DNA from: a virus
Length of the DNA stretch: 48,605 nucleotides
Strand: one strand, 5' to 3'
Virus record (IMG/VR): IMGVR_UViG_3300017963_000357
Location: 1-48,605 of that record
This document shows positions 6,432 to 42,942 of the stretch, piece after piece (positions within the stretch are counted from its first letter, which is position 1; every line of letters starts with the position of its first letter). A program made the translations under genes and the position numbers. Below the pieces are notes generated by a model. It was not told the DNA's origin. It was given only the letters and a program-made list of their open reading frames with translations, and ran no database searches.

Positions 6432-7058
6432 TTACGCACTCACTGTATAGGTGACCTTCAGTTGGTCACTCGCAGCCACAACCACGTCACCACTTGTGAA
6501 CAGAGCAGTTGCCCACAATGTACCACCAGATGCGTGATCACCCTTTGTCTGGGCACCGGCGATACCACCGACGCAGAAGATACCTTTGACAGTACCCGAT
6601 CCAGTGATGTCGTAAATCGCAACAGTGGAGTTGCTGATCGACTGGGCCGACGCTGCATCGGGTCCCCACTCAGGTCGCGTTGTTGTGCTGGACGCATTGT
6701 TCGCATCCGTGTAGGATGTAAACTCATCCCAGCCGTTTCCAGCCTGGTTAATGTCATCGTACGTGTCTCCGTCAGCCAGAGCCGAGTAGGACGCGTTGTC
6801 GATGAGACCGAGATACCAAGATGTGATCTGGGTATCGGCATTGAAAGCGACGTCAAGCAGGTTGTTCTTGCCTTCGTTTGTGATTCCGTTCGCGATGTTC
6901 CATTCGTTGATCCGCTTCCCACCGCGCCACTGCGACACGTTGAACATACCACGGATTTCATACAGGCCACTTCTCATGTCCTGGGACGCCGCAGGGTTCG
7001 CGGCGCGGATGATGCTCACAGCCGCACTTTGCGTTGCGTCAATCTTAGATGCTGACAT
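6432..7058 (-). CDS. Phage tail/structural protein, 208 aa
   Basis: Begins MSASKIDATQSAAVSIIRAA. The centre contains GLYEIRGMFNVSQWRGGKR and NGITNEGKNNLLDVAF, a pattern I associate with short phage virion proteins downstream of tape measures. The C-terminal half is rich in Ser, Thr and small residues and probably beta-structured. It lies 12 bp downstream of the tape measure stop. I cannot assign a defined role. Confidence 0.75.
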   Translation of the reverse strand: MSASKIDATQSAAVSIIRAANPAASQDMRSGLYEIRGMFNVSQWRGGKRINEWNIANGITNEGKNNLLDVAFNADTQITSWYLGLIDNASYSALADGDTYDDINQAGNGWDEFTSYTDANNASSTTTRPEWGPDAASAQSISNSTVAIYDITGSGTVKGIFCVGGIAGAQTKGDHASGGTLWATALFTSGDVVVAASDQLKVTYTVSA

Positions 7059-7070
7059 CTGATTCTCCTC

Positions 7071-10000
7071 CTAAAGAGAAAGGGTGTTGCGCCGCATTTC
7101 TCGTTTGAGAGCGCGACCGAGTTGTCTACCAGCCCTGTCATCAACACGCGATGTTGATGTGTTGACTGTTACGTTGATGTCTCCGAAGTTAGAGACGGGA
7201 CCGCCCTCTTGACGGTATATTGGTTGCACGCCAGCATTCATTGCTTGCAGCTGCGTGTAGAACTTCCGTGATGCTCGGGGATTCATTACGACTTCCCCTG
7301 GAGTTAACATGGCGGGAACCGTATCGGTCCCCTTTGGAACAAAGCCACCACCCGCAAGATAGCGAGCCCTGACATTGCGTCCAATCTGAGCGTTCCCAAC
7401 TTGCGATGTTGGCACGGTGGGGAATTGAATGTTCCCAGCCGCTTGCCCGACCGAGGTGACAAGGTTTAACATACCCTGCAACTGCTGATTTGTGTTCGCA
7501 GTCGTTTGTTCGACGGTACCCATTGTCGAGTTCAATTGGGTTGTCGCTTGTGTTGTGTTACCAGCTTCTGTTGTGGCATTCTTCAGTTCCGTATCGATAC
7601 CCTGCGCACCAGCCGCCCGTTGCTCTGTTGTAGCTGCACCTTGTTGAATTAGTCTTCCTAATTCAGCAGCCGACCTTGCGAACGAGGCTTCTGTGTTTCT
7701 GATCGTGGTATCGAGGACAGTTCTTTGGATGACGGACAGGCTGGCAAATAAGGCTTGGTAATCGTTGTCCAGCTTAATAAGGCTGGCAGACAAGTCCGCA
7801 GCTGTCTTCGTCCCGGCTGTTGCCGTGATGTTGGCAGCTGTTTGTGCAAGCGTATCCAATTCTGTTCGGGCACCAGCAATATCAAACCCCTGCGTTGAAC
7901 CACCCGGTGTCAAGAAGGCAGCGGAACTAATACCTGCGGCGACAGGGACGGTTACCACTTTGGCAGCTTGCTCCCAGAAGGTAGCCCCCTCCTTCATGAT
8001 CTCATTGATTTCCCTCGTGGTGTTGTGCAAGTCTTCTGTTGCCGACTTCTGAGCTTCGATGTTCTCTGCCACTTTGATTTGGCGAGCCTTCTCTTCGTTG
8101 ACAAACGAAACCAAGGCGTCGACTGTGCCAGTCCCACCTAACCCAAACTGAATCTCTTGTAACTTGGATCGATCGATGCCTTCACTCAGCCCTCGGTTAA
8201 CAGCCTTCGTGACCGCGTCTGCGATCCCGAGTTCAATGTCGATGTTCAGCTTGTTCAAGGAACGACCACTGAGAACCACGTCAACATCAATACCCGCCGC
8301 ACGCTGTGATTGGAGGGCACTGTTGATGTCTCGATTGAACTCAGCAAAGCTAAAGATGTCGTTTGCTGTTAGCTTGGCATTATCAGGTAGAGCCAGACCA
8401 CGTATGGTACTCAGACCTTGCTGAATCTGCTTTGTTATGTCCGATCGCTGCGTGAAGTTATCGGTGACATTCAATTTGTCTTGGAGATCAAGAACGTTCT
8501 TTACTGCCTTCTGTAAGCTTTGGAGACGACCTTGCTCGGCTTCCTGCTCGGCTGCCAGTTGTGCGGTACGCTGTCTCTGCTTGCGAGCCTGTGTCTCTTC
8601 GGCTGCGATTAAGGCGCGTTGGGACGAGAAGCGAGACTGAGCAATGCGGTTTTGGAGTGCCAGGTTGCCAGTTGTTTGGGCTGCCGCCGATGCCTCGCGC
8701 AAGAACCCGTCCGCTCGCTGCTGGACACGCAGAGCTGCTGATACGTCTTCTTGTGTTCGTGCTGACGCGAGAGCCTCTGACGCGGAGCGGGCGAGGGATA
8801 GCCCACGCTGCTCGGCAGCAGAGGCTTGTGCAATCGCTGAGCGACGCTTGTTGAGAAACTTGAACTCGTCGTCGGCTAAGGCTGCACGGCGATCCGCCGC
8901 ACGGAGGTCTGCGTCAAGAGCAAGCTGTGTTGCATCTTCACGTTCGCTTCCGAGGTTACTAACTAGGTCTTTGTTGGCTTGTACGATTGCGTCGAGTACG
9001 GACTTACTGTCGGACTTGATTTTAGCGTTGGTTTCTTCCCAATTCTTGATACGCTGTTGTAGAATCCCACGCTCGTCGCGTATGTACTCAGAGATACCTG
9101 AGAATCGTTCACGAATACTTTGCCGTTCAATCTCTAACAGTTGCTGACGAACGCTGCGTGCTTGTTGAACACGTGTGGCACTCGCTTGCTCAGCGGACTT
9201 TATTGTTTCTGCAAGTGCCTGCTTTCCACTCTCTTCCGCAGCCGCCTCAATTGCTAAATAGGCAGCAACAATTCCGCCAGCGACAGCAACCACTGTCCCA
9301 GCTGCAATTGTCACGGCACCAAACGACTGTGCGAGGAGGAAGTTCTTAATGGCTACCGCGCCAGCGGCACCACCATAGATACCAAGAACTGTGCCAGCTG
9401 TTATGACAACTGGGATCATCGCTTTAATTACAATTGTTGCGTTGTCGCCAGCGTTTGTGAGTTCAAGGAAACGGCGCGTGGCTGAGAGTATAGCCTGCCC
9501 CATGTCAACCGTCAGTGCGTTGCTGAGTTGGTTTAGTTGCCGCTCGACTCGTTCAGCATCAGTCTCGATTCTGATTTCCAACTTCTCTTGCACAAGGCTC
9601 TGTGAAACGTTGTTGATGCTTTCCAGGTTGCTTGCGAGTTGTCTTCCATCATCGCGCGCCAAGACTAAGGCACCCGCCAACCCACGAACACGCGGGATCA
9701 ACTTCGCCATCTCACTGGCACTTCCGCCAGATGCTTCAGAGATCAACTTTAGGGCGCCCTCAAGACCAAGGGCTTCGATGGCGACTTCACCAGAGGCAAA
9801 GCCAGCTTTGTCCAAGACTTCAACCATCGCATCCGTCGGCTTGATGAACGCGTTAATAACACCACGGAGTTGGGTTGCAGCCTTCGCTGTGTCCACACCA
9901 TTGATCGTCAATGTTGCGAACGCGGCAGACAACTCTTCAACGGACCCACCCGCTTCTTTGAACAGAGGAGCAACGGTGCCGAAGCTGTTAGACAGCTCAT

Positions 10001-27739: not shown

Positions 27740-28735
27740 TTACCAAACGTAGTCGAGCCGACTGCGTCGAGGATAGCCTCTGTAGTTTGAGATGGCGTAA
27801 CTGTCGCCAAAGCTCAGCATGTATTCAATTGTGTCTGGGTCTACCCAGAACGAGCCATCGGGCTGATTCCAACGCTTCGGACCTTTGATCCACTTCTTAC
27901 CCCAGGAGTTGATGACCAAGCCACCGTGGCGTCGGCTCAGGGTGTCCGTCCCTGCCAGGAGCATCGCGTGGTACCACTTCTCGCTGATGGGCTTTGCAAA
28001 GCCGTCCTCATCGCGTTCGTTCGAGAACCCCTGATCCGAACACAGGATGATTGGGTACCCATTCGACGTGGCGTCACAGGCTTCGTCCCATGTCTTGACA
28101 ACGGCAGCTGTCCTGACTGGGTGCTCCTTGCACAGTGAAATCAATTCCTCCGGGACGCCGCCGCCCCACGTCGTGCATTCGTTGCACTTGTGCGCCCATG
28201 CGCGGGCTTTCAGTCCATCGTATGTTGTGAAGTCGAAGTCACCGTAGGCTTGGCGGAGCAGACTACCGTAGTGCATACACCAATCGGCTGCCCATTCCCC
28301 TGCACAGCCATCCCTGAAGGGGAGGTTACCGCCAGCAATCTGAACTCTCGCACCAGCGTGAATCACTTCGGTCGCGGCTTTACCCGCCCACCGCTCCAAG
28401 CGGCGAAGCGAGTACATCTGCACGCACGTCAGGACGTCAATCCCGAGTCCGTACGCCTGGCTCACGCAGTCGCCGATCTTTTGATCATGCGGCACGAGCG
28501 GGGCTTTTGTTGCTCGCTCCAGGTATTTCCATAAGAGAGCAAGCTTCCGTCGACCTGTCCGCTGCAAAGCGTAGTTGAATGTTGCGAACTCGGGTCGGTG
28601 CTTGGCTGGTCCGGGTCGCCAGCCGCCATCAATCGGTTTCTTGGATCGCGTTGCCTCTGCAAGTAACTGCCCGGGGGACATTGCGCCAGCGACGAGTGTG
28701 CCACCAGCAAGGCTTAAAAACGATCTGCGATCCAT
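27740..28735 (-). CDS. Papain-like (C1-type) cysteine protease with Tat-type signal
   Basis: A 331-residue protein. The N-terminus MDRRSFLSLAGGTLVAGAM has a twin-arginine motif and a hydrophobic core, so export in folded form is likely. The catalytic pattern of papain enzymes is present in order: oxyanion Gln85 and nucleophile Cys90 (QKIGDCVSQ), His256 (WYHAMLLAG) and Asn276 in INSWGKKW. Many other cysteines suggest disulphides. It lies in the late operon between exported proteins and a thioredoxin-like gene. Possible roles are lysis, envelope protein cleavage or virion use. Confidence 0.85.
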   Translation of the reverse strand: MDRRSFLSLAGGTLVAGAMSPGQLLAEATRSKKPIDGGWRPGPAKHRPEFATFNYALQRTGRRKLALLWKYLERATKAPLVPHDQKIGDCVSQAYGLGIDVLTCVQMYSLRRLERWAGKAATEVIHAGARVQIAGGNLPFRDGCAGEWAADWCMHYGSLLRQAYGDFDFTTYDGLKARAWAHKCNECTTWGGGVPEELISLCKEHPVRTAAVVKTWDEACDATSNGYPIILCSDQGFSNERDEDGFAKPISEKWYHAMLLAGTDTLSRRHGGLVINSWGKKWIKGPKRWNQPDGSFWVDPDTIEYMLSFGDSYAISNYRGYPRRSRLDYVW

Positions 28736-32821: not shown

Positions 32822-33411
32822 ACACATGGTTTACGTCCGATCTGCACTTCGAGCACGAGCGACTCATCAATCTGGGTGGGCGCCCGTTCGAGTCCGTCGA
32901 CCATTGGAACGAACACATCCTCGACGCGATCAACTCAAGGGTCATGAGGGCGGACCGGTTGTTCATCCTTGGAGACTTCGCGTGGCACCGCCCTGGTTAC
33001 TGGCGTCAACAGATACGTTGTAGGCACGTTGAACTTATATTGGGCAACCACGACAACGAGAACAAGTGCCGGAAGGTCTTCGGAGGGTCCTGCTATCGAC
33101 AAAGAATGACCAAGATGAACGGAGTGCGCGTCTTTATGAGTCACTTCCCGAACGCGTTCTGGGACTTGAGCCACCGTGGGTCGCTGCATTGTTATGGACA
33201 TACACATGCGCAACGAGAAGACACCCTCGACACAACATGGCCAGAACGACGCAGTATGGACGTTGGTCCTGACAATGCGGCTCGTCTGACCGGCGAGTGG
33301 CGCCCCTTCAGTGGGCAGGAGGTTATTGAGCGGCTGATGGCTCGGAAGGGTCATGATTTGCCAGAGTTCTATCACGAGTTTCAGAGAAACCTTGCAGAGG
33401 AGCGATCATGA
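32818..33411 (+). CDS. Calcineurin-like metallophosphatase
   Basis: Start MNTWFTSDLHFEHERL at 32818 (ATGA overlap). All metallophosphatase motifs are present in order: D8-x-H10, GD53, GN77-H-D79, SH109 and GH128-T-H130. The 197-residue size fits small phage and bacterial members. It should bind two metal ions and hydrolyse phosphoesters. The substrate is not predictable; its 4-base coupling to the Thg1-like gene suggests RNA-end chemistry. Confidence 0.9.
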   Translation: MNTWFTSDLHFEHERLINLGGRPFESVDHWNEHILDAINSRVMRADRLFILGDFAWHRPGYWRQQIRCRHVELILGNHDNENKCRKVFGGSCYRQRMTKMNGVRVFMSHFPNAFWDLSHRGSLHCYGHTHAQREDTLDTTWPERRSMDVGPDNAARLTGEWRPFSGQEVIERLMARKGHDLPEFYHEFQRNLAEERS

Positions 33412-34100
33412 AAGACCTTGGCGACAGGATGAAAGAGAACTACGAGAGCCGTGCGAAGTTCTGCCTCACGCGGAGGACGCCGGTCATCATCCGGATAGAC
33501 GGGCGCGCCTTCCACACATTCACGCGTGGCTTCGATCGTCCCTTCGATCAACGCCTCATCAACGCGATGGTGCATGCTACCAAGGAACTCTTGGCGGACG
33601 CCCAAGGCGCCAAGCTGGCCTACACCCAGAGTGATGAGATCAGCGTGGTGTTGACGGACTACGACACACTCCAGACGGACGCGTGGTTCAATTATAGCGT
33701 GCCTAAGATATGCAGCAATGCCGCCTCCATAGTGACGCGAGCCTTTAACAAGGCGATCGTGTACCCGGAGGCTGCCACGAAGTACCCGTCGGGCGCCACG
33801 TTCGACGCGCGGTGCTTCAACATCCCGAAGGAAGAGGTGGCCAACTATTTCCTCTGGAGAGGTTTGGACTGGAAGCGTAATTCCCTCTCGATGTTCGCGA
33901 GTTCGTTCTTCTCGCAGAAGCAGCTCCATGGGAAGCACGCGTCGCAAGTCCACGAGATGCTTCATGAAATTGGAAAGAATTGGGCAACCGATTTGACAGA
34001 GCAGGAAAAGAATGGTACATTTGTAAGTAAGCGTGGCCCGTTTCATGTCTACCCGGACTACGAGGCCATAGAGTGGGTTCTTGAGGAGACGATGCCGTGA
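33408..34100 (+). CDS. thg1: Thg1-like 3'-5' RNA polymerase (tRNAHis guanylyltransferase family)
   Basis: A 230-residue protein with the Thg1 signature: RID31GRAFHTFTRGF and AKLAYTQSD76EISV. Asp31 and Asp76/Glu77 match the metal-binding carboxylates of the palm domain. FDARCFNIPKEEVANYFLWRG and WKRNSLSMFASSFFS follow, as in the family. Thg1-like proteins add nucleotides to RNA 5' ends, to tRNAHis G-1 or to repair truncated tRNAs. No tRNA gene was found in the window. Overlaps of 4 bases on both sides indicate a tight operon. Confidence 0.93.
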   Translation: MKDLGDRMKENYESRAKFCLTRRTPVIIRIDGRAFHTFTRGFDRPFDQRLINAMVHATKELLADAQGAKLAYTQSDEISVVLTDYDTLQTDAWFNYSVPKICSNAASIVTRAFNKAIVYPEAATKYPSGATFDARCFNIPKEEVANYFLWRGLDWKRNSLSMFASSFFSQKQLHGKHASQVHEMLHEIGKNWATDLTEQEKNGTFVSKRGPFHVYPDYEAIEWVLEETMP

Positions 34101-34936
34101 AACGTTGGTTGATTTTACTTGGTTGTGTTTGTCTGTACATCGTTGGTATGTCGATTGTTGGGCATTTCGTGTGCTCATCGGCTTGTGGCGCGCCTCCTGA
34201 CTTCTGTGTCCGTGTCTTCGTCGATGACAAGGGCGGCAGCCCGGTCTGTGACTCGCAAGGCAGCGGTACGCTGATCTCGCCCACGGAGATAGTGACGAAT
34301 CACCATGTGGTTCGCGACCGCAAGGAGAACAAGGTCCTGATCATGTTTACCGATTGGGAGTGGACGACCGGCAAAGTCATCCGCGAAGACAAGATTTGGG
34401 ACATCGCAATTGTCCAAATCGATAAAACCGATCGCACGCCAGCCGTTCTGGGTGAGACGCCATGCGACGACGAGTCGCTCACAATCCATGGCTATGGGTT
34501 TGGCATCCCAGCATCGATCACAGGCACGCTCTCGGACTGTATCCCGAGCCCTACGGCTGCCAAGGGTCAATCGGGTCTTAGGTTTGTCGCCGGGGCAGGT
34601 GCGCGGGGTGGTGACTCAGGAGGACCTGTGACATACAATGGGAAATATGTTGGGACGCTTGTGGCGACCAACGGAGTCGATACGCTTTACATCACAGTTG
34701 AACGCGTCAACAAGATCAGAAAGGTCCCCAATGGAAACGTTTCAGTTCCAAAAGAAGAATCAAGCGGGGAAGTGGATTCCAGTGTCGGTGATACAGTGCC
34801 AACCTCGCGATATCAGCCGCGCGATCGAGTTCATGTCTGGGTCGGACCCCGACTCACGTATGAAACGAATGAATTGCAGCATCGCCGAAGCCTGTACTTC
34901 CCCAAGTGGTACACTCCCGATCCGAGTGCTGGCTAA
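34097..34936 (+). CDS. Exported trypsin-like serine protease
   Basis: GTG start in a GTGA overlap with the Thg1-like gene. Residues 1-30 form a signal peptide or membrane anchor (MKRWLILLGCVCLYIVGMSI). The catalytic triad of S1 proteases is clear: His70 (TNHHVV), Asp102 (WDIAIVQID) and Ser174 (GGDSGGPV). Cysteines could form disulphides. The last 65 residues after the domain look unstructured and overlap another frame at 34731-34964. It presumably acts in the periplasm or at the surface. Confidence 0.88.
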   Translation: MKRWLILLGCVCLYIVGMSIVGHFVCSSACGAPPDFCVRVFVDDKGGSPVCDSQGSGTLISPTEIVTNHHVVRDRKENKVLIMFTDWEWTTGKVIREDKIWDIAIVQIDKTDRTPAVLGETPCDDESLTIHGYGFGIPASITGTLSDCIPSPTAAKGQSGLRFVAGAGARGGDSGGPVTYNGKYVGTLVATNGVDTLYITVERVNKIRKVPNGNVSVPKEESSGEVDSSVGDTVPTSRYQPRDRVHVWVGPRLTYETNELQHRRSLYFPKWYTPDPSAG

Positions 34937-36049: not shown

Positions 36050-36077
36050 TTGACAACCGACGCTCATAGTGTATACT
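36050..36077 (+). promoter_or_regulatory. Strong sigma70-type promoter for the DUF6745 gene
   Basis: A perfect TTGACA (36050-36055), a 16-base spacer and TATACT (36072-36077) lie just before the DUF6745 gene. This is the best promoter in the rightward operon and could also feed the mini-gene array downstream. Confidence 0.85.
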
Positions 36078-36110: not shown

Positions 36111-37070
36111 ATGATGATCGAAGAACTGACCCCGGAACAAACCGCTCAACTTGATGTTTACTTCCAAGAAGCCTTGGACATCGGTCTTAGCACCGCCGAC
36201 GTCGACAGAGAGAAGGCAATCACCGCCGTCCGCCTCGCGTACGAGAAGGTTGATATCGAATGCCCGGAGACCTTCATCTTCGCGCAATCACCCACGGACT
36301 GCGTCGACAAACAGAAGCAGTTCTCCGATGAGCACAAGTGTGGGCTGTCACGGTCGACTCTCTTTGAGCACCAAATTTATGGGTGCCACGACATCTACTG
36401 GTTGCAGTTCTACAACTTCTTCTGGAAGGAAGTCGGCTTCGACGAGCTGGCGATCATTGAGGGGCTCCTGGAAGTCTCGCGAACCTGTGGTTGGTGGGCG
36501 CCATACAAAGAGGTGGTGTTCATCCAAGAGCGTCCACTTGAGATTCACTTCAACGAAGGTCAGTTGCACAACGAGGATGGACCTGCCATTCTCTACCGTG
36601 ATGGCTTCGCGGTGTGGGCTCTCAACGGCGTCCGCGTTCCCGAGTGGCTGGTGACGACTCCGATCGAGGATATCACTGGGCAGCAGGTCTTGAGCATCAC
36701 AAATGCCCAAGTCCGTGCCGAAGCCATCCGTAAGATAGGGATGGAGCGACTGGTCGTAATCTCCAATCCGATCGTTCTCGATAAGGAAGAGAACTACGAA
36801 CTCGTCGACCTTCAGGCGATGTTCGAGACGGAAGGACCCAAGCCGTACTTGAAGATGAAGAACCCGAGTGTTCCAGACTTGTGGCACGTCGAGGGTGTCG
36901 GGGTTGAGTGTACGACGATCGACGAAGCACTCCACTTCCGGAAGCCGGACAACATGCGGCGCATCCCGGTCGACGCCGAGAACGGCAAGGACTGGTTTCA
37001 GCAAGGGGATGTCTGCATCTTCCCGAAGAATGCAACGAGTCTGAAGCCGAGGCCCAAGATTCTTACCTGA
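36111..37070 (+). CDS. DUF6745-like protein
   Basis: A 319-residue protein. The second ATG (36114) has better spacing to GGAG. Recognisable DUF6745 segments are YGCHDIYWLQFYNFFWKEV (about 90-108), CGWWAPYKEVVFIQERP and IHFNEGQLHNEDGPAILYRD, then VPEWLV and a C-terminal LWHVEGV part. The family has no known function. In my recollection many members carry long DQVW/DQVR tetrapeptide repeats just before the YGxHD motif. This copy lacks them, yet such repeats occur as separate mini-genes 3 kb downstream. Confidence 0.85.
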   Translation: MMIEELTPEQTAQLDVYFQEALDIGLSTADVDREKAITAVRLAYEKVDIECPETFIFAQSPTDCVDKQKQFSDEHKCGLSRSTLFEHQIYGCHDIYWLQFYNFFWKEVGFDELAIIEGLLEVSRTCGWWAPYKEVVFIQERPLEIHFNEGQLHNEDGPAILYRDGFAVWALNGVRVPEWLVTTPIEDITGQQVLSITNAQVRAEAIRKIGMERLVVISNPIVLDKEENYELVDLQAMFETEGPKPYLKMKNPSVPDLWHVEGVGVECTTIDEALHFRKPDNMRRIPVDAENGKDWFQQGDVCIFPKNATSLKPRPKILT

Positions 37071-37130: not shown

Positions 37131-37382
37131 ATGACTCCAGAAGTAGACAAGAGCAAGAAAGCGTTGATCCTTGCTCACGGTGAAGTCACCGGACATTACC
37201 ACGGGATCGATATTGACGAAGTCGAAGTCCACGAAGACTTCTTCGCCGTCTCCAAGCCGGAAGGCGCCACGTTGACTCACCAAGAGCACAACGCGGTCAC
37301 ACTTCCTCCGGACGAGTACGACTCGGGTATTATCCGCGAGACGGATCATATAACGGAAGAAGTTCGCAACGTCGCCGACTGA
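37131..37382 (+). CDS. HGExTGHxH-motif partner of DUF6745
   Basis: An 83-residue protein with LILAHGEVTGHYHGI, LTHQEHNAVTLPP and a closing EEVRNVAD. The His-rich HGExTGHxH motif and this ending are typical of a small protein often encoded beside DUF6745 genes. Histidines suggest metal binding in a cupin-like fold. GGAG lies upstream of the start. Function unknown. Confidence 0.85.
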   Translation: MTPEVDKSKKALILAHGEVTGHYHGIDIDEVEVHEDFFAVSKPEGATLTHQEHNAVTLPPDEYDSGIIRETDHITEEVRNVAD

Positions 37383-37418: not shown

Positions 37419-37445
37419 GGGCTCCCTTCGGGGAGCCCTTTGTTT
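37419..37445 (+). terminator. UUCG-loop terminator after the DUF6745 pair
   Basis: GGGCTCCC (37419-37426), loop TTCG, GGGAGCCC (37431-37438), then TTTGTTT. A canonical intrinsic terminator. The mini-gene array starts four bases after it, so array expression needs read-through or an unseen promoter. Confidence 0.9.
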
Positions 37446-37448
37446 ACC

Positions 37449-37643
37449 ATGACACCATTGTGTGTAACCTTTCGACCAGAAGTCTACCACCAAGGGTGTC
37501 GCATCCTTGGCCTTGGCAGGACATTTATGGCAGTTGATGTCAACAGGGATGGGGACCGGTACACGGAGGTTTGGGATGACGAACTCTTTCCTATCACTTG
37601 GAGCATAGGTGATGCAGTCCGTGATTCCGAACTTATACGTTAG
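37449..37643 (+). CDS. MTPL mini-gene 1 (64 aa)
   Basis: Begins MTPLCVTFRPEVYHQG right after the terminator. It contains YTEVWDDELFPITW. An upstream TTG in frame is a less likely start. First member of the array. Confidence 0.6.
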   Translation: MTPLCVTFRPEVYHQGCRILGLGRTFMAVDVNRDGDRYTEVWDDELFPITWSIGDAVRDSELIR

Positions 37644-37647
37644 TGTG

Positions 37648-37791
37648 ATGCGACGATGTATGGCCTGGAGTTTCAAACAGCGTCAACTCGATGAGGCAGA
37701 AAGTTCATCGCAGAAGCTGTATTTGGAAGGAATGAGAAACATAACATTTGCTGCGAAGGAAGAGGCACGTCTGGCTTCTCGCGAAAATTAA
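37648..37791 (+). CDS. Small basic frame inside the array (47 aa)
   Basis: MRRCMAWSFKQRQLDEAESS, with no MTP start and no good Shine-Dalgarno sequence. It fills the gap between mini-genes 1 and 3. It could be a decayed member. Confidence 0.35.
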   Translation: MRRCMAWSFKQRQLDEAESSSQKLYLEGMRNITFAAKEEARLASREN

Positions 37792-37792
37792 G

Positions 37793-37951
37793 ATGACGCC
37801 ACTCTACTCACGTATTCGAAACGCAATCAAACACAGCATCGACGTGAACAATAATGTGCCTGGGTTCCTAGTATTCGGATGGTATCCACAAACAGTCCAG
37901 TTCCTCGACCTGACACGTGAACTGATTATGACTACGAGAGACACGATATGA
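37793..37951 (+). CDS. MTPL mini-gene 3 (52 aa)
   Basis: MTPLYSRIRNAIKHSIDVNN, ending IMTTRDTI. Its TGA lies in the next ATGAC. Confidence 0.65.
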   Translation: MTPLYSRIRNAIKHSIDVNNNVPGFLVFGWYPQTVQFLDLTRELIMTTRDTI

Positions 37952-38160
37952 CTTCCATTCGACCGCTCTTCGCCACAAGACCGCTCCTCCGTTCGGGCTT
38001 CGGTATTCACAGGTCCTCGTCTGTGATGAAGGGGCTGGGGCTCACGTACTGGCTGACCAGTGAAGGGCACGGGCTTCAGATGGTCTACAACCAACAGATA
38101 CTGAGAGTGAAATCCGCCGCCTATGCAGACAGTAAGGAATCAATTGTTGAGGGAGCCTGA
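37948..38160 (+). CDS. MTPL-family mini-gene 4 (70 aa, MTSI start)
   Basis: MTSIRPLFATRPLLRSGFG, with Pro replaced by Ser at position 3. ATGA overlap with the previous member. Confidence 0.6.
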   Translation: MTSIRPLFATRPLLRSGFGIHRSSSVMKGLGLTYWLTSEGHGLQMVYNQQILRVKSAAYADSKESIVEGA

Positions 38161-38182
38161 CGAGGTGTCATATGACATCGTC

Positions 38183-38305
38183 ATGACTCGTGTGAGTGCG
38201 ACACCCCGCCGACAGATCGAGGATCGGTTACTATGGGTTTTCGACTTCTACCCAGGAGATTGGTGTGACGCCGATGAAATGGAAACTCCGTTCACGCCCA
38301 CTTGA
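38183..38305 (+). CDS. Mini-gene 5 (40 aa, MTRV start)
   Basis: MTRVSATPRRQIEDRLLWVF. The frame is open upstream to an ATG at 38123 and a GTG at 38165, so the start is uncertain. It overlaps the next member by 41 bases. Confidence 0.45.
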   Translation: MTRVSATPRRQIEDRLLWVFDFYPGDWCDADEMETPFTPT

Positions 38306-38429
38306 CGTGTGTACGAATTGGCACAACCTGTCGAAGTTTGAACTCACGTGCAAAGCCTACGTGCAACTCGATGCTCCGTTGTGGAAGACCATGACCGAGC
38401 TGATTGAAAGTGTGAGGGACTCGGTATGA
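38265..38429 (+). CDS. Mini-gene 6 (54 aa, GTG start)
   Basis: AGGAG lies 7 bases before GTG ACG CCG, so the family start is kept with GTG for ATG. The product begins (M)TPMKWKLRSRPLDV and has PLWKTMTELIESV near its end. TGA lies in the next ATGAC. Confidence 0.65.
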   Translation: MTPMKWKLRSRPLDVCTNWHNLSKFELTCKAYVQLDAPLWKTMTELIESVRDSV

Positions 38430-38593
38430 CGCCACTTCATCAGACCGTTGGTCGAATACGGGTCAGCAGTGTGTTCCCACCTGGTTGTTGGAATAGGTGG
38501 ATAGACCGGGTGCCAGCTTCAATACGGGCTGTCCGACTCGAAGTAGATAGCAGAATGTTAACGGAGGACTTACGTGGCACCCCTTCGAGATGA
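38426..38593 (+). CDS. MTPL mini-gene 7 (55 aa)
   Basis: MTPLHQTVGRIRVSSVFPPG, with CWNRWIDRV in the middle. ATGA overlap upstream and a 20-base overlap downstream. Confidence 0.65.
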   Translation: MTPLHQTVGRIRVSSVFPPGCWNRWIDRVPASIRAVRLEVDSRMLTEDLRGTPSR

Positions 38594-38732
38594 AATCTGG
38601 TGGCGGGTCGCTGGTCCGTTGTGGACGCGGATACCATGTGAATCATTGTTGAAACATTCAATCCATGATTGGATGGCTCCGCATAGGGTCAATATAGTGT
38701 CCGCATTTGTGAAACAGGTAATAGATGACTGA
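38574..38732 (+). CDS. Mini-gene 8 (52 aa, GTG start, APL)
   Basis: GGAGG lies 6 bases before GTG GCA CCC CTT. The product (M)APLRDEIWWRVAGPLWTRI keeps the periodic W/V pattern. Confidence 0.65.
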   Translation: MAPLRDEIWWRVAGPLWTRIPCESLLKHSIHDWMAPHRVNIVSAFVKQVIDD

Positions 38733-38913
38733 TCTTCGTAACGACTTGCGAGACTGTGTGTGGTCACGATCAGCGCACCGAGTGTGGAAACAGGCGTCAC
38801 AACCTGTACGGACTCGTTGTCAAGTCCCTACTGCGGTCGCTGTGTTGATGAGGGACTGGTTGAAAGACGTGATCTGGGTCGAGGTTTATGACCTGTTGGA
38901 GGGGATCACATGA
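38725..38913 (+). CDS. Mini-gene 9 (62 aa, MTDL)
   Basis: MTDLRNDLRDCVWSRSAHRV, with VWKQ and WLKDVIWVEVYDLL later. The VW pairs fit the family. TGA lies in the next ATGAC. Confidence 0.65.
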   Translation: MTDLRNDLRDCVWSRSAHRVWKQASQPVRTRCQVPTAVAVLMRDWLKDVIWVEVYDLLEGIT

Positions 38914-39071
38914 CACCAGTGAAGTTCTTTGTAAGCAGTCAAATGCGAGGTAAAGCGTGGGACTGCGTGGTGGCATCCTTCCGCTCTAGGATTGTTCATC
39001 AAAAGTTACGGAGACCACTTAGGCATACGTTCATATCGATTCAAGACCTGGTAAAAGGACCATGGCGATGA
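38910..39071 (+). CDS. MTPV mini-gene 10 (53 aa)
   Basis: MTPVKFFVSSQMRGKAWDCV, ending VKGPWR. ATGA overlaps at both ends. Confidence 0.65.
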   Translation: MTPVKFFVSSQMRGKAWDCVVASFRSRIVHQKLRRPLRHTFISIQDLVKGPWR

Positions 39072-39253
39072 CACCTTTGAAAGAGGCGACCCGATCAGGT
39101 ATAGCCCCACAGGCTAATACTTGCCTCGACAATCGTGTTGCGTCCTTTACGTTCGACCTCGTGTGGCTCGTTATTCGAGAGGAGCTGTGGGTGAGGCTTT
39201 GGCTTGGAACTCGTGATCACATCAGGCAGGAAATCAAAGAGACATTACCATGA
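39068..39253 (+). CDS. MTPL mini-gene 11 (61 aa)
   Basis: MTPLKEATRSGIAPQANTCL; the second half VWLVIREELWVRLWLGTR shows the W/V/L period. ATGA overlaps at both ends. Confidence 0.65.
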   Translation: MTPLKEATRSGIAPQANTCLDNRVASFTFDLVWLVIREELWVRLWLGTRDHIRQEIKETLP

Positions 39254-39432
39254 CACCTCTGGTTGACAGTGTTTGCCGAGCTGCTCAGTACCAAGCCATG
39301 GATTCCGTGCAGGAGTTAGTCAATGATAACATCTCCGCCTGCGTGTGGAAGGCGACTCGCGGGAAGGCATGGCGTTTTATGTTGAATGTGGTGATCATCC
39401 CAGTACGGCACCAGGTGAAGGAGCCATTATAA
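39250..39432 (+). CDS. MTPL mini-gene 12 (60 aa)
   Basis: MTPLVDSVCRAAQYQAMDSV, ending IIPVRHQVKEPL. Its TAA shares one base with the next ATG. Confidence 0.65.
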   Translation: MTPLVDSVCRAAQYQAMDSVQELVNDNISACVWKATRGKAWRFMLNVVIIPVRHQVKEPL

Positions 39433-39599
39433 TGACTTCGATCAAACTTGAAATCCGCGAACACGTTTGGGAAGACATGCACCACCGCCTGTGGGGACCT
39501 CAAAGACGCTACACGCTGAAGTCACTTGGAGAGGTACTGTCCGTATTGAAACCGGTTGGGTTCGCGTTCCTTGTCGAGACCATTAAGGATTCAACATGA
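39432..39599 (+). CDS. MTSI mini-gene 13 (55 aa)
   Basis: MTSIKLEIREHVWEDMHHRL then WG, with the V-W spacing of the repeat members. Confidence 0.65.
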   Translation: MTSIKLEIREHVWEDMHHRLWGPQRRYTLKSLGEVLSVLKPVGFAFLVETIKDST

Positions 39600-39754
39600 C
39601 ACCATTGAAACGGATAGTGTATTACGATGTGGGGAAGCGTATGTGGGCTCTCATGGTTTGCGTGGCGCCCGAGCATCGCGAGTGGCAGAAGCCGTGGGTG
39701 AGGATTCCTCGACTCATTATTCCGATAGCGAATGCCGTGAGGGAGACAGTATGA
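39596..39754 (+). CDS. MTPL mini-gene 14 (52 aa)
   Basis: MTPLKRIVYYDVGKRMWALM, ending PIANAVRETV. ATGA overlaps at both ends. Confidence 0.65.
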   Translation: MTPLKRIVYYDVGKRMWALMVCVAPEHREWQKPWVRIPRLIIPIANAVRETV

Positions 39755-39906
39755 CACCACTTTACCGTGAGTGCCGCCCATACAATAGGCGCCCGCTGAT
39801 TGCGACGCATCTGCCCGAGTGGATCGCGTCACTTGCATGGGTGGTATTTACTCAGGATGCTTTGATGCGCGGTGTTATCGAGATGCTTACTCAGGGGGCA
39901 CTATGA
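39751..39906 (+). CDS. MTPL mini-gene 15 (51 aa)
   Basis: MTPLYRECRPYNRRPLIATH, ending IEMLTQGAL. ATGA overlaps at both ends. Confidence 0.65.
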   Translation: MTPLYRECRPYNRRPLIATHLPEWIASLAWVVFTQDALMRGVIEMLTQGAL

Positions 39907-40073
39907 CGCCATTGAAATCGATAATGCGACGGTACGTCTGGGAGTGGCTTCACGTCTTCGTGGATAAACGGACGAGTCGGGGACTGCGAGTGTCGGTAAG
40001 CGAGCGGTTAGATTTCTGGACTGTCACGAGGGCGCGAAACTTACTTCGTGCGTGGATCAAGGAGTCACTATGA
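39903..40073 (+). CDS. MTPL mini-gene 16 (56 aa)
   Basis: MTPLKSIMRRYVWEWLHVFV, ending RAWIKESL. Its VWEWLHVFV stretch looks like a diverged DQVWDQV repeat. ATGA overlaps. Confidence 0.7.
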   Translation: MTPLKSIMRRYVWEWLHVFVDKRTSRGLRVSVSERLDFWTVTRARNLLRAWIKESL

Positions 40074-40180
40074 CGCCTCTTAGAAATCAGGTTTGGAATC
40101 AGGTTTGGAATCAGGTTTGGAATCAGGTTTGGGATCAGGTTCGGAATCAGGTTAGGGATCAGGTTGGGGCGCAACTATGA
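40070..40180 (+). CDS. Pure-repeat mini-gene 17 (36 aa)
   Basis: MTPLR followed by seven NQVW/DQVR-type tetrapeptides, closing GAQL. Each unit is 12 bp (GATCAGGTTTGG type). ATGA overlaps. Confidence 0.75.
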   Translation: MTPLRNQVWNQVWNQVWNQVWDQVRNQVRDQVGAQL

Positions 40181-40347
40181 CGCCAATTAAGGATCAGGTT
40201 TGGGATCAGGTTTTGAATCGGGTTTGGGATCAGGTGCGGGATCAGGTGCGGGATCAGGTTTGGAATCAGGTTTGGGATCAGGTTTGGGATCATGTTTGGG
40301 ATCAGGTTCGGAATCAGGTTTGGGATCAGGTTGGGGCGCAACTATGA
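40177..40347 (+). CDS. Pure-repeat mini-gene 18 (56 aa)
   Basis: MTPIK then about twelve [D/N][Q/R]V[W/R/L] units, closing GAQL, exactly as the previous member. The shared head and tail mark a recent tandem duplication with expansion. Confidence 0.75.
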   Translation: MTPIKDQVWDQVLNRVWDQVRDQVRDQVWNQVWDQVWDHVWDQVRNQVWDQVGAQL

Positions 40348-40550
40348 CGCCAATTAAGGATCAGGTTTGGAATCAGGTTTGGAATCAGGTTCGGAATCAG
40401 GTTTGGAATCAGGTTCGGAATCAGGTTTGGAATCAGGTTGGGGATCGGGTTTGGAATCGGGTTTGGAATCGGGTTGGGGATCAGGTTTGGGATCAGGTTA
40501 GGGATCAGGTTTGGGATCAGGTTAGGGATCAGGTTGGGGAGCAACGATGA
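40344..40550 (+). CDS. Pure-repeat mini-gene 19 (68 aa)
   Basis: MTPIK then about fifteen tetrapeptide units, closing GEQR. Same head as mini-genes 18, 20 and 27. Confidence 0.75.
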   Translation: MTPIKDQVWNQVWNQVRNQVWNQVRNQVWNQVGDRVWNRVWNRVGDQVWDQVRDQVWDQVRDQVGEQR

Positions 40551-40831
40551 CGCCAATTAAGGATCAGGTTTTGAATCGGGTTTGGGATCAGGTTCGGGTT
40601 GGGGATCAGGTTCGGGCGCAGGTTGGGGATCAGGTTGGGGATCAGGTTCGGGCGCAGGTTTGGAATCGGGTTTGGAATCGGGTTAGGGATCAGGTTTGGG
40701 ATCAGGTGCGGGATCAGGTGCGGGATCAGGTGCGGGATCAGGTTTGGAATCAGGTTTTGGATCAGGTTTGGGATCGGGTTGGGATCGGGTTGGGGATCAA
40801 CGATGACGCCGCTTCGAAAAGAGATGTGTGA
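40547..40831 (+). CDS. Pure-repeat mini-gene 20 (94 aa, frameshifted at its end)
   Basis: MTPIK then about eighteen units, including irregular RVGDQVRAQV. Near 40780 one base is missing relative to the repeat, so the frame changes to GIGLGIND and misses the expected CGA TGA at the next start, running on to 40831. Without the loss it would end at 40806 like its neighbours. Confidence 0.65.
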   Translation: MTPIKDQVLNRVWDQVRVGDQVRAQVGDQVGDQVRAQVWNRVWNRVRDQVWDQVRDQVRDQVRDQVWNQVLDQVWDRVGIGLGINDDAASKRDV

Positions 40832-40973
40832 CCGGCTCTGGGGACGGAGTTGGGATTTGATCCAGGATACGGTCCATGTCCCGGTTCAACAGTTTGTTGA
40901 GATGGGTGACGGGTTGATGGGGCAAACTCGCAACTTCGTTCGTGAGGAGATGAGGAATTACACCATTAGCTGA
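40803..40973 (+). CDS. MTPL mini-gene 21 (56 aa)
   Basis: MTPLRKEMCDRLWGRSWDLI, ending REEMRNYTIS. Non-repeat member following the repeat block. Confidence 0.7.
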   Translation: MTPLRKEMCDRLWGRSWDLIQDTVHVPVQQFVEMGDGLMGQTRNFVREEMRNYTIS

Positions 40974-41106
40974 ACTGTTCATGGGAACTGATTTCAAGTG
41001 TGGGAGTCTGACGGGGAGCATGGTCCCATTTGACACGCGTGGCACGGCTGGGTTGTTTAGTCAGGTGATGTTTCGGGTATACGTGTCCGTGCGAGAGTGG
41101 TTATGA
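40957..41106 (+). CDS. Mini-gene 22 (49 aa, apparent ATT start)
   Basis: The family start appears as ATT ACA CCA TTA: (I)TPLAELFMGTDFK. GAGGAG lies 7 bases upstream, at the proper place. Otherwise the first ATG is at 40981 and the TPL head would be lost. It ends VSVREWL with TGA in the next ATGA. Confidence 0.5.
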   Translation: MTPLAELFMGTDFKCGSLTGSMVPFDTRGTAGLFSQVMFRVYVSVREWL

Positions 41107-41270
41107 TACCATTGATTGACGTGATTCGAACGAACATATTTCAGGGCTCGTTCACTGCGTTGGGCAAAGGGACTCATCCACTCAACGATTTGGTGAGGTC
41201 GGTGCGGCCAGAAGTGATGCTGCCGCTCATTCTTTCTATCAGATGGGAGGTCAGGAATGACGCCACTTAG
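41103..41270 (+). CDS. MIPL mini-gene 23 (55 aa)
   Basis: MIPLIDVIRTNIFQGSFTAL. Its 3' end overlaps the next member by 14 bases, with TAG inside the following CCACTTAG. Confidence 0.65.
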   Translation: MIPLIDVIRTNIFQGSFTALGKGTHPLNDLVRSVRPEVMLPLILSIRWEVRNDAT

Positions 41271-41454
41271 AAATCAGGTTTGGGATCAGGTTTTGAATCG
41301 GGTTTTAATCAGGTTTGGGATCAGGTTCGGAATCAGGTTTGGAAACAGGTTTGGAAACAGGTTCGGAATCAGGTTCGGAATCAGGTTAGGGATCGGGTTG
41401 GGAATCAGGTTAGGGATCAGGTTAGGGAATTACTATGACACCTTTGCGACGTGA
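41257..41454 (+). CDS. Pure-repeat mini-gene 24 (65 aa, frameshifted)
   Basis: MTPLRNQVWDQVLNRVL, then one base is missing near 41306 (GTTTTAATC for GTTTTGAATC), so the frame changes to GIRFGNRF repeats. In the original frame it would read NQVWDQVRNQV and end ELL at the TGA inside the next ATGAC. Confidence 0.6.
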   Translation: MTPLRNQVWDQVLNRVLIRFGIRFGIRFGNRFGNRFGIRFGIRLGIGLGIRLGIRLGNYYDTFAT

Positions 41455-41614
41455 GATGGTTGATGATGTGTGTAGCTACTGTTACCGCTGGCAGTTCGCG
41501 GTGCCTAACGTATCGAGAGCCGTGGGCGCCTTGTGTCATTTCCATAGCTGTCCGCAGGAGGTGGAGGCGGTTTGGAGTGGGTACGTTCTTCAGGAGGCTT
41601 TCCAATGGGTCTGA
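41435..41614 (+). CDS. MTPL mini-gene 25 (59 aa)
   Basis: MTPLRREMVDDVCSYCYRWQ, with Cys- and aromatic-rich sequence, ending LQEAFQWV. Confidence 0.65.
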   Translation: MTPLRREMVDDVCSYCYRWQFAVPNVSRAVGALCHFHSCPQEVEAVWSGYVLQEAFQWV

Positions 41615-41808
41615 CGCCTATGAAGAGTCAGGTTTGGAATAATGTTCAGAAGTCGGTTCGGGTCCATGTTCAGAAGCAGGTTGGGTCCCTGGTTTGGAAT
41701 CAGGTTTGGAATCAGCTTCATGCGGAGATGGGGTATCGGATTTGGGATCATATTTGGTATCAGATGTGGTACTGGATCAGATTAGGGAAGAATTATGACG
41801 CCAATTAA
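41605..41808 (+). CDS. Mini-gene 26 (67 aa, MGLTPMK start)
   Basis: AGGAGG lies 7 bases before ATG 41605, placing two residues (Gly, Leu) in front of the TPMK head. It continues SQVWNNVQKSVRV, SLVWNQVWNQLH, IWDHIWYQMWYW: a clear intermediate between pure repeats and diverged members. Confidence 0.7.
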   Translation: MGLTPMKSQVWNNVQKSVRVHVQKQVGSLVWNQVWNQLHAEMGYRIWDHIWYQMWYWIRLGKNYDAN

Positions 41809-41887
41809 GGATCAGGTTCGGGCGCAGGTTTGGAATCAGGTTCGGAATCAGGTTGTGGATCAGGTTCGGAATCAGGTTGGTGATTGA
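41795..41887 (+). CDS. Pure-repeat mini-gene 27 (30 aa)
   Basis: MTPIKDQVRAQVWNQV and a few more units, ending QVGD. The shortest pure-repeat member. Confidence 0.65.
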   Translation: MTPIKDQVRAQVWNQVRNQVVDQVRNQVGD

Positions 41888-41905
41888 TCATTATGGGGTG
41901 GATCG

Positions 41906-41989
41906 ATGACTCCATCTATGAAAACCCACCACGCGCCCGCGTTCCAACGACGCGTCACCCTACCAACTCTACGTGGAGATAAAAGATGA
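41906..41989 (+). CDS. Mini-gene 28 (27 aa, MTPS)
   Basis: MTPSMKTHHAPAFQRRV, with its TGA in the next ATGAC. Very short; a truncated or marginal member. Confidence 0.4.
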   Translation: MTPSMKTHHAPAFQRRVTLPTLRGDKR

Positions 41990-42183
41990 CCCCACTCCGA
42001 GCAGCCATCTACACGACCCCGGCGATCCAGATTCAGGAGTGGCTGTGGACACGGGGTTCCACTGGGTGCCGGAATGTGGTGTGGGGACGGTTACCCATCC
42101 GCTTCTTCTTAGCTACGGTCGATCCTATTGCCGATGAGCTGGCGATACGCTGGCGGCTGCCGACTGCCGCTCCGTCTCTTTGA
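41986..42183 (+). CDS. MTPL mini-gene 29 (65 aa), last of the array
   Basis: MTPLRAAIYTTPAIQIQEWL, ending LPTAAPSL. The last codons and stop are inside the first of three 19-bp tandem repeats. Confidence 0.65.
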   Translation: MTPLRAAIYTTPAIQIQEWLWTRGSTGCRNVVWGRLPIRFFLATVDPIADELAIRWRLPTAAPSL

Positions 42184-42221
42184 TGCCGCTCCGTCTCTTT
42201 GATGCCGCTCCGTCTCTTTGA
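42165..42221. repeat. Three tandem 19-bp repeats
   Basis: TGCCGCTCCGTCTCTTTGA occurs three times in perfect tandem (42165-42183, 42184-42202, 42203-42221). The first copy contains the stop codon of the last array member. A run of G follows at 42236-42246. Confidence 0.95.
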
Positions 42222-42512
42222 TGCCTTGCACGCGTGGGGGGGGGGTGGTAGCGCACCGTTTGCGACGCGCGGCGCCCTCTGACCTGCGACGCGTCGGCTA
42301 CTTCTCAGATTGACCCGCCAGTGTCGAAAGGGCATGGCGAGGATATAACCCCTACCACCGGTATAACCCGCACAATTAGACCCACCCCACTTACCCACAC
42401 AACCACACCTACCCTCCAGCTCGACCCCACCGCTCCATCCATCATCACCCGCACAACCATCACCCGCACCACGGCATATCCGATCATTCCAATCATACCG
42501 ACTTGGAGGCTT

Positions 42513-42853: not shown

Positions 42854-42942
42854 CAGAAGTGTATCATTTTAATACACACCACCCATTGGAGGGGTAAGCC
42901 AGAAGTGTATCATTTTAATACACTCCACCCGTTGGAGGGGTA
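42854..42942. promoter_or_regulatory. Twin 43-bp elements with palindromic core, candidate operators
   Basis: Two 43-bp direct copies with two mismatches lie at 42854-42896 and 42900-42942, a 46-base period. Each contains GTGTAT-N7-ATACAC (42859-42877 and 42905-42923) followed by CCACCC and TTGGAGGGGTA. They look like tandem protein-binding sites. Confidence 0.6.

Follow-up and report, generated by a model that had tools for sequence, protein, structure and literature searches.

An array of coupled tetrapeptide-repeat mini-genes beside a repeat-free DUF6745 gene in a phage genome

The DNA analysed here, called the window throughout, is the whole of a 48,605-base virus record (IMGVR_UViG_3300017963_000357). 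On its plus strand, between 37449 and 42183, about 4.7 kb is tiled by about 28 small open reading frames (ORFs), mostly of 27-70 amino acids and mostly overlapping. The most regular of these mini-genes encode nothing but tetrapeptide repeats of the form x1-Q-V-x4 (xQVx tetrads), and close upstream lies a gene of the DUF6745 family that lacks the xQVx repeat found inside most of its sampled viral relatives. The peptides of the array may supply that missing part in trans. The members of the array are as follows.

37449..37643, plus strand: first ORF with a Met-Thr-Pro (MTP) head, weak in tetrad character
37793..38913, plus strand: divergent members starting at 37793, 37948, 38183, 38265 (GTG), 38426, 38574 (GTG) and 38725
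38910..40073, plus strand: run of seven divergent members (38910, 39068, 39250, 39432, 39596, 39751 and 39903), every stop overlapping the next start by 4 or 1 nucleotides
40070..40180, plus strand: mini-gene of pure xQVx tetrads, 36 amino acids
40177..40347, plus strand: pure tetrad mini-gene, 56 amino acids, predicted as a single 53-residue helix (predicted local distance difference test, pLDDT, 91)
40344..40550, plus strand: pure tetrad mini-gene, 68 amino acids
40547..40831, plus strand: tetrad mini-gene with a frameshift close to its 3' end
40803..41270, plus strand: divergent members 40803, 40957 (ATT, or ATG at 40981) and 41103
41257..41438, plus strand: tetrad mini-gene with an early frameshift; the tetrad frame runs on over 41280-41438 and ends over the next ATGA
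41435..41887, plus strand: members 41435, 41605 (LTPM head) and 41795
41906..42183, plus strand: final two MTP-headed ORFs, 41906 and 41986, weak in tetrad character
40086..41879, plus strand: 12-bp tandem units coding the tetrads, consensus ATCAGGTTTGGG (Tandem Repeats Finder)

The original prediction, made from the sequence of the window, described about 29 mini-genes, nearly all headed Met-Thr-Pro-Leu/Ile/Val. The array is real and has about 28 members, but a strict MTP head is present in 19 of them; the remainder begin with MTS, MTD, MTR, MIP, VTP, VAP, LTP or, on an ATT codon, ITP. This ATT, at 40957, is a candidate start only, with an in-frame ATG at 40981. The prediction also held that most stops are the TGA inside the next ATGACnCC start. 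In 12 cases the TGA of an ORF of at least 35 amino acids indeed lies inside an ATGACn[C/T]C start (first-order Markov resamples of the same region average 0.11 such cases and never exceed 1), but these make up about half of the junctions. Member 41103 shows an additional overlap, ATGATACC. The weakest members, 37449, 41906 and 41986, show slight tetrad structure when judged by eye. Tandem Repeats Finder located two longer 12-bp arrays, 40086-40799 and 41272-41428, with shorter ones reaching 41879, and the DNA of the array has a strong 12-bp periodicity and a G-rich strand bias. When the codon preference of the phage's other, confident genes was applied, the assigned frame was preferred in 15 of 20 members, a test that by design gives stop-free frames an advantage. 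The end of the last ORF of the array is spanned by a 19-bp tandem repeat, TGCCGCTCCGTCTCTTTGA, in 3.2 perfect copies (42165-42225).

Many members carry no obvious DNA repeat. In 18 such members, V, I, L or M recurred at lag 4 in 106 instances versus 64.7 expected (z = 6.6), with a further signal at lag 8 (z = 3.0). The hydrophobic residues of divergent members share one phase, that of the V of xQV (46% versus 15-21% elsewhere), and the x4 phase is enriched in W. Because this period-4 hydrophobicity runs in phase with the V of xQVx, the divergent members are best read as diverged tetrad peptides and not as random frames. In-phase xQVx tetrads matching the internal repeat of DUF6745 proteins are present in the pure members at 40070-40550, in 41257 and in 41795, so that the unit of the array corresponds to the DUF6745 repeat; the divergent members are tied to it by the period-4 signal only. 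The proposal that genuine coding units were serially duplicated and then diverged is supported by this periodicity, by like arrays in about 37 viral loci, and by the one-tetrad indel and fused unit that separate two closely related arrays (L219 and L220, below; L and G numbers are our own handles).

The DUF6745 gene next door, which the original prediction missed, is the main clue to the nature of the array. Four features precede the first mini-gene.

36050..36077, plus strand: promoter-like TTGACA-16-TATACT, 11 of 12 positions, upstream of the module; a consensus match only, the region's total of such matches not exceeding that of shuffles
36111..37070, plus strand: DUF6745 protein in repeat-free form, 319 amino acids (Pfam PF20530, E = 1.9e-22; 80 bits versus a curated cut-off of 27)
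37131..37382, plus strand: small protein with an HGEVTGHYH motif (HGE protein), PHROG 27831 family, the conserved neighbour of DUF6745
37419..37438, plus strand: hairpin resembling an intrinsic terminator, between the HGE gene and the array (fold z = -3.3)

We compared this arrangement with other viral loci. The loci are those among the matches listed in scans that differed in bait, so their frequencies should not be read as estimates for a population; as they come from metagenomic virus records, often fragments, their repeat arrays are liable to assembly error. An xQVW peptide search of viral contigs gave 79 loci among the matches listed. In the majority of them the tetrads form an insertion at one fixed point inside DUF6745, between the N-terminal helices and the 'YG.HD..WL.FY' region. 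In a second, split class, to which the window and about 30 other non-redundant viral loci belong, DUF6745 is continuous and the tetrads lie in separate nearby small ORFs; these are often coupled through ATGA, and their heads and tails are particular to each array. Thus most sampled viral members of the family (PF20530, which includes gp174 of the Microcystis phage Ma-LMM01, a protein without QV tetrads) hold the same xQVx tetrads internally, whereas the DUF6745 protein of the window is continuous across the family profile, without the repeat insertion, and the tetrads are found instead in separate coupled mini-genes.

The original prediction had proposed a search for other phages with tandem frames headed in this way. 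Indeed, L345 and L202 carry arrays with MTPV heads, and in L345 the window's ATGACACC stop/start overlap recurs. Other-headed arrays were found in L133 (head MKLKSV, tail RTIH[RQ], two arrays, with its repeat-free DUF6745 gene at 6658-7515), L129 (MKSVHKQI, with tetrad mini-genes on both strands around DUF6745), L137 (MKSV), L125 (MTLSEEQIQPVRNQV), L134 (MRLDKPDVRVW, with a degenerate DUF6745 relative only), L219 (17 junctions, MK[QE]V...VKENLK) and L166. Mini-gene arrays were not found in 50,697 phage records, which is weak evidence since tblastn masks low complexity. Among the open-licence papers searched, none was found that names DUF6745, and searches with the repeat strings and for tandem tetrapeptide mini-genes likewise gave nothing relevant. 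Similar chains are present in dozens of viral genomes, which points to a widespread and undescribed gene system that would account for one kind of small phage ORF lacking annotation. Two further arrangements of DUF6745 genes were observed: in L092, mini-genes lie between two different DUF6745 genes, both repeat-free, and a Roseovarius chromosome record has five 100% identical DUF6745 genes (L248, L249, L251, L252 and L253) with NL-type tetrads and an integrase-like gene nearby, either a multi-copy mobile element or an assembly effect.

Internal repeats and mini-genes exclude each other. Among non-redundant viral loci with usable flanks, 39 had an internal repeat and no mini-genes, none had both, 32 had a repeat-free DUF6745 with mini-genes, and 7 had neither (Fisher p = 4e-15). 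A viral 'mixed' class in an earlier tally proved on inspection to consist of false positives and is gone from this table. Inspection also showed that L235, counted as split, is an internal QL-repeat protein, that L226 and L223, counted as repeat-free, are internal SV- and AV-repeat proteins, and that L182 and L204, counted as having neither, are near-identical to contigs with mini-genes. With these corrections the exclusion is strengthened.

The DUF6745 core tree, from a short search with support by SH-aLRT only, requires 10 changes of the split state, at least 6 of them forced by well-supported branches. On it the window protein groups with L157 and L117, both internal-repeat (support 99). 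Together these results show that the repeat has switched between cis and trans several times, and separately in the lineage of the window. The closest relative is L157, at 49% identity, whose internal repeat is irregular. L157 also has another short-period repeat gene, a separate small ORF at 7115-7372 built of WS/RS/GS/LS dipeptides.

Arrays turn over faster than the adjoining DUF6745 gene. L219 and L220 have identical DUF6745 DNA and a single mismatch in 5153 aligned bases; what separates them is a 12-bp (one-tetrad) indel together with a gap of about 194 bases, across which two units are joined in L219 as an in-frame hybrid. Mini-gene sets differ between L137 and L163 (DUF6745 DNA 86.5% identical) and between L187 and L185 (85% identical), and among related split phages the arrays are either identical or non-orthologous. 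For the window itself, the best terminase relatives are fragments ending before the array; one of them, G003 (85% terminase identity), ends inside DUF6745.

We examined how the members of such arrays are joined. Across 37 loci, 137 close junctions had spacings of -4 (76), -8 (19), -14 (11), -17 (8), +4 (6), -1 (3) and others. Among closely spaced gene pairs in general, -4, -1 and -8 are enriched, and -4 constrains the second codon (review, PMC12548453). The array junctions therefore use the spacings of translationally coupled operons; known operons of this kind join few unlike genes, whereas here one mini-gene is repeated in a chain of up to 17 or more copies. The second codon starts with A at 132 of the 137 junctions. 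Since the ATGA overlap forces an A-initial second codon, part of the MTP head follows from the overlap, and arrays elsewhere use MKSV, MKPV, MKQV or MNSV, which calls for a change to the view of the head in the original prediction: MTP is one version of a more general head, M-x-[P/S/Q]-[V/L/I]-[K/R/S]-x-Q-V.

Within loci, variation falls almost wholly at two residues per tetrad, x4 and x1, and the synonymous sites are fixed. Gene diversity, computed within loci and only where Q and V were kept, was 0.096 in split and 0.017 in internal repeats at the fourfold site of V, and 0.024 and 0.008, respectively, at the third base of Q. At the first base of x4 it was 0.53 (split) and 0.62 (internal), and the more variable x1 bases gave 0.39-0.46. 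The bases that vary are the first of x4 (T, G, A or C) and the first two of x1. From one locus to another the codons for Q and V change (CAA or CAG; GTC, GTT or GTA) and the residues do not. In other lineages the constant pair is QL, SV, NL or NI (e.g. Xenococcus L266, Mycobacterium L261, Roseovarius L248 and the prophage prophiGD102-1, whose gp38 has QL tetrads); there x4 is still mostly W, G or R (TGG, GGG, AGG or CGG) and x1 mostly D, A or N.

We considered the array as a functional DNA or RNA, such as a recombination hot spot, a protein-binding repeat or a regulatory RNA, that does not act through peptides. The strong periodicity, the strand bias and the near-invariance of the Q and V codons within a locus are what such a role would leave. 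However, codons change between loci while residues stay, the constant pair can be QV, QL, SV, NL or NI with the same variable residues, and no Rfam match was found, so that we regard this reading as very improbable. Two explanations of the codon pattern were rejected. A diversity-generating retroelement acting on adenines would change the Q codon too, yet Q is kept in 92% of split tetrads despite the adenine in its codon (no search for a template or reverse transcriptase was made). Open alternative frames as the cause were inconsistent between loci when the codon tables were inspected. The pattern suggests recombination among units together with diversifying selection, the only mechanism that we can offer; variation at two residues with fixed synonymous sites calls for strong diversifying selection or an undescribed diversification route.

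On balance, we lean towards the view that the array encodes, as one polycistronic unit, helical repeat peptides that supply the repeat rod of DUF6745 in trans and have a variable role in infection. The mini-genes would encode stand-alone versions of the xQVx domain that most viral DUF6745 proteins carry in-chain. Many peptides would be translated from a single message by termination-reinitiation at the ATGA overlaps, as the coupling signals suggest. They would fold into helical rods and join the DUF6745 core, standing in for the missing cis rod; what bears on such a physical association is the linkage of the genes and mutual exclusion. The array may expand, contract and reshuffle through slippage and unequal recombination between 12-bp units, so that each phage would have a changing peptide family whose members differ chiefly at two residues per tetrad, and older members would diverge yet retain their period-4 hydrophobic spine. 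The complex might then serve in variable recognition or in assembly during infection. In many viral lineages a hypervariable repeat domain is either held inside one protein or exported to coupled mini-gene arrays, with several switches between these states; nature has thus repeatedly tried out the transfer of a domain from cis to trans, and the role of DUF6745, a family without assigned function, becomes testable.

Structure prediction is compatible with the proposed rods. AlphaFold2 modelled the core of an internal-repeat DUF6745 protein (L121) mostly above 90 pLDDT, and the window mini-protein at 40177..40347 as one 53-residue helix (pLDDT 91). The L121 model had no significant fold match in the PDB; in BFVD its matches were only DUF6745 relatives and unnamed phage fragments, Ma-LMM01 gp174 being the best.

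Several observations count against peptides that replace the rod in trans. The repeat region of L121 was predicted as helical but uncertain (pLDDT about 51-77), and helix prediction for low-complexity repeats is weak evidence. The terminator-like hairpin precedes the array, so that its cotranscription with DUF6745 is uncertain. Mini-genes were not detected at the repeat-free viral loci L195, L212 and L234. Two viral contigs of 77-80 kb, G015 and G016 (L077 and L078), have tetrad mini-ORFs although no DUF6745 core was found on them, and these contigs may be incomplete. Members 40547 and 41257 are frameshifted inside the 12-bp repeats, and their ORFs thus end in the wrong frame. Moreover, the 12-bp repeat readily yields open frames in several registers.

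The last two points, together with the fast turnover of arrays, favour a non-functional expansion, in which a repeat-prone 12-bp unit, once free of DUF6745, keeps duplicating and decaying and produces the open frames only incidentally. This explanation has to face the overlaps, the sites resembling ribosome-binding sites and the period-4 spine that persist in members without any remaining DNA repeat, the recurrence of one design, under other heads and codons, in about 37 loci, and the exclusion between mini-genes and internal repeats; we consider it unlikely. The large contigs with mini-ORFs and no DUF6745 found bear on another alternative, that each peptide works alone as a small inhibitor with a target of its own, perhaps in host defence or metabolism, DUF6745 being only the historical source and neighbour of the peptides. 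Phages commonly carry arrays of small accessory genes, and the members of one operon are highly divergent. Mutual exclusion and repeated switching are nevertheless better explained by a task shared with DUF6745. No match of weight to a defence or anti-defence family was obtained, PADLOC models giving no strong match and a single weak one, to a repeat peptide (E = 0.0035). Independent inhibitors therefore seem to us rather improbable.

Peptides working with DUF6745 could also be thought of as a modular recognition system. TALE and pentapeptide repeats are modular repeat proteins with variable residue pairs; as in these, invariant backbone residues are combined in the tetrads with two variable positions per repeat. 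The unit here is four residues long, and no useful sequence or fold match was found. Since the x4 and x1 alphabet is kept when the constant pair changes to QL, SV, NL or NI, the order of x1-Q-V-x4 units along the rod, with two choice positions in each, would specify a ligand, and phages would rewrite it by recombining 12-bp units, in DUF6745 or in the peptide array. We mention this possibility as a speculation that we doubt.

The surroundings of the array are those of a tailed phage, with a structural module on the minus strand whose terminase, portal, major head and tape-measure proteins all have PHROG matches. The HGExTGHxH family adjoins DUF6745 in 79 of 129 loci, the window member being assigned by its motif and its PHROG match, and comparison of the neighbours in these 129 loci revealed no other general conserved neighbour. 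In Ma-LMM01, gp175 next to gp174 is likewise an HGE protein. On the other side of gp174, gp173 is a middle-phase gene (PMC5780444). Elsewhere in the window, 33408-34100 encodes a homologue of tRNA-His guanylyltransferase (PHROG 4717, E = 1e-78), and ARAGORN finds no tRNA gene in the record. Two genes, 27740-28735 and 34097-34936, were judged by eye to encode unusual phage cargo, namely a protein resembling papain, with a twin-arginine-type leader, and a trypsin-like serine protease. Finally, downstream of the array, at 42854-42942, two near-identical 46-bp direct repeats each contain an imperfect palindrome, GTGTATCATTTTAATACAC, and may be an operator or origin iterons.

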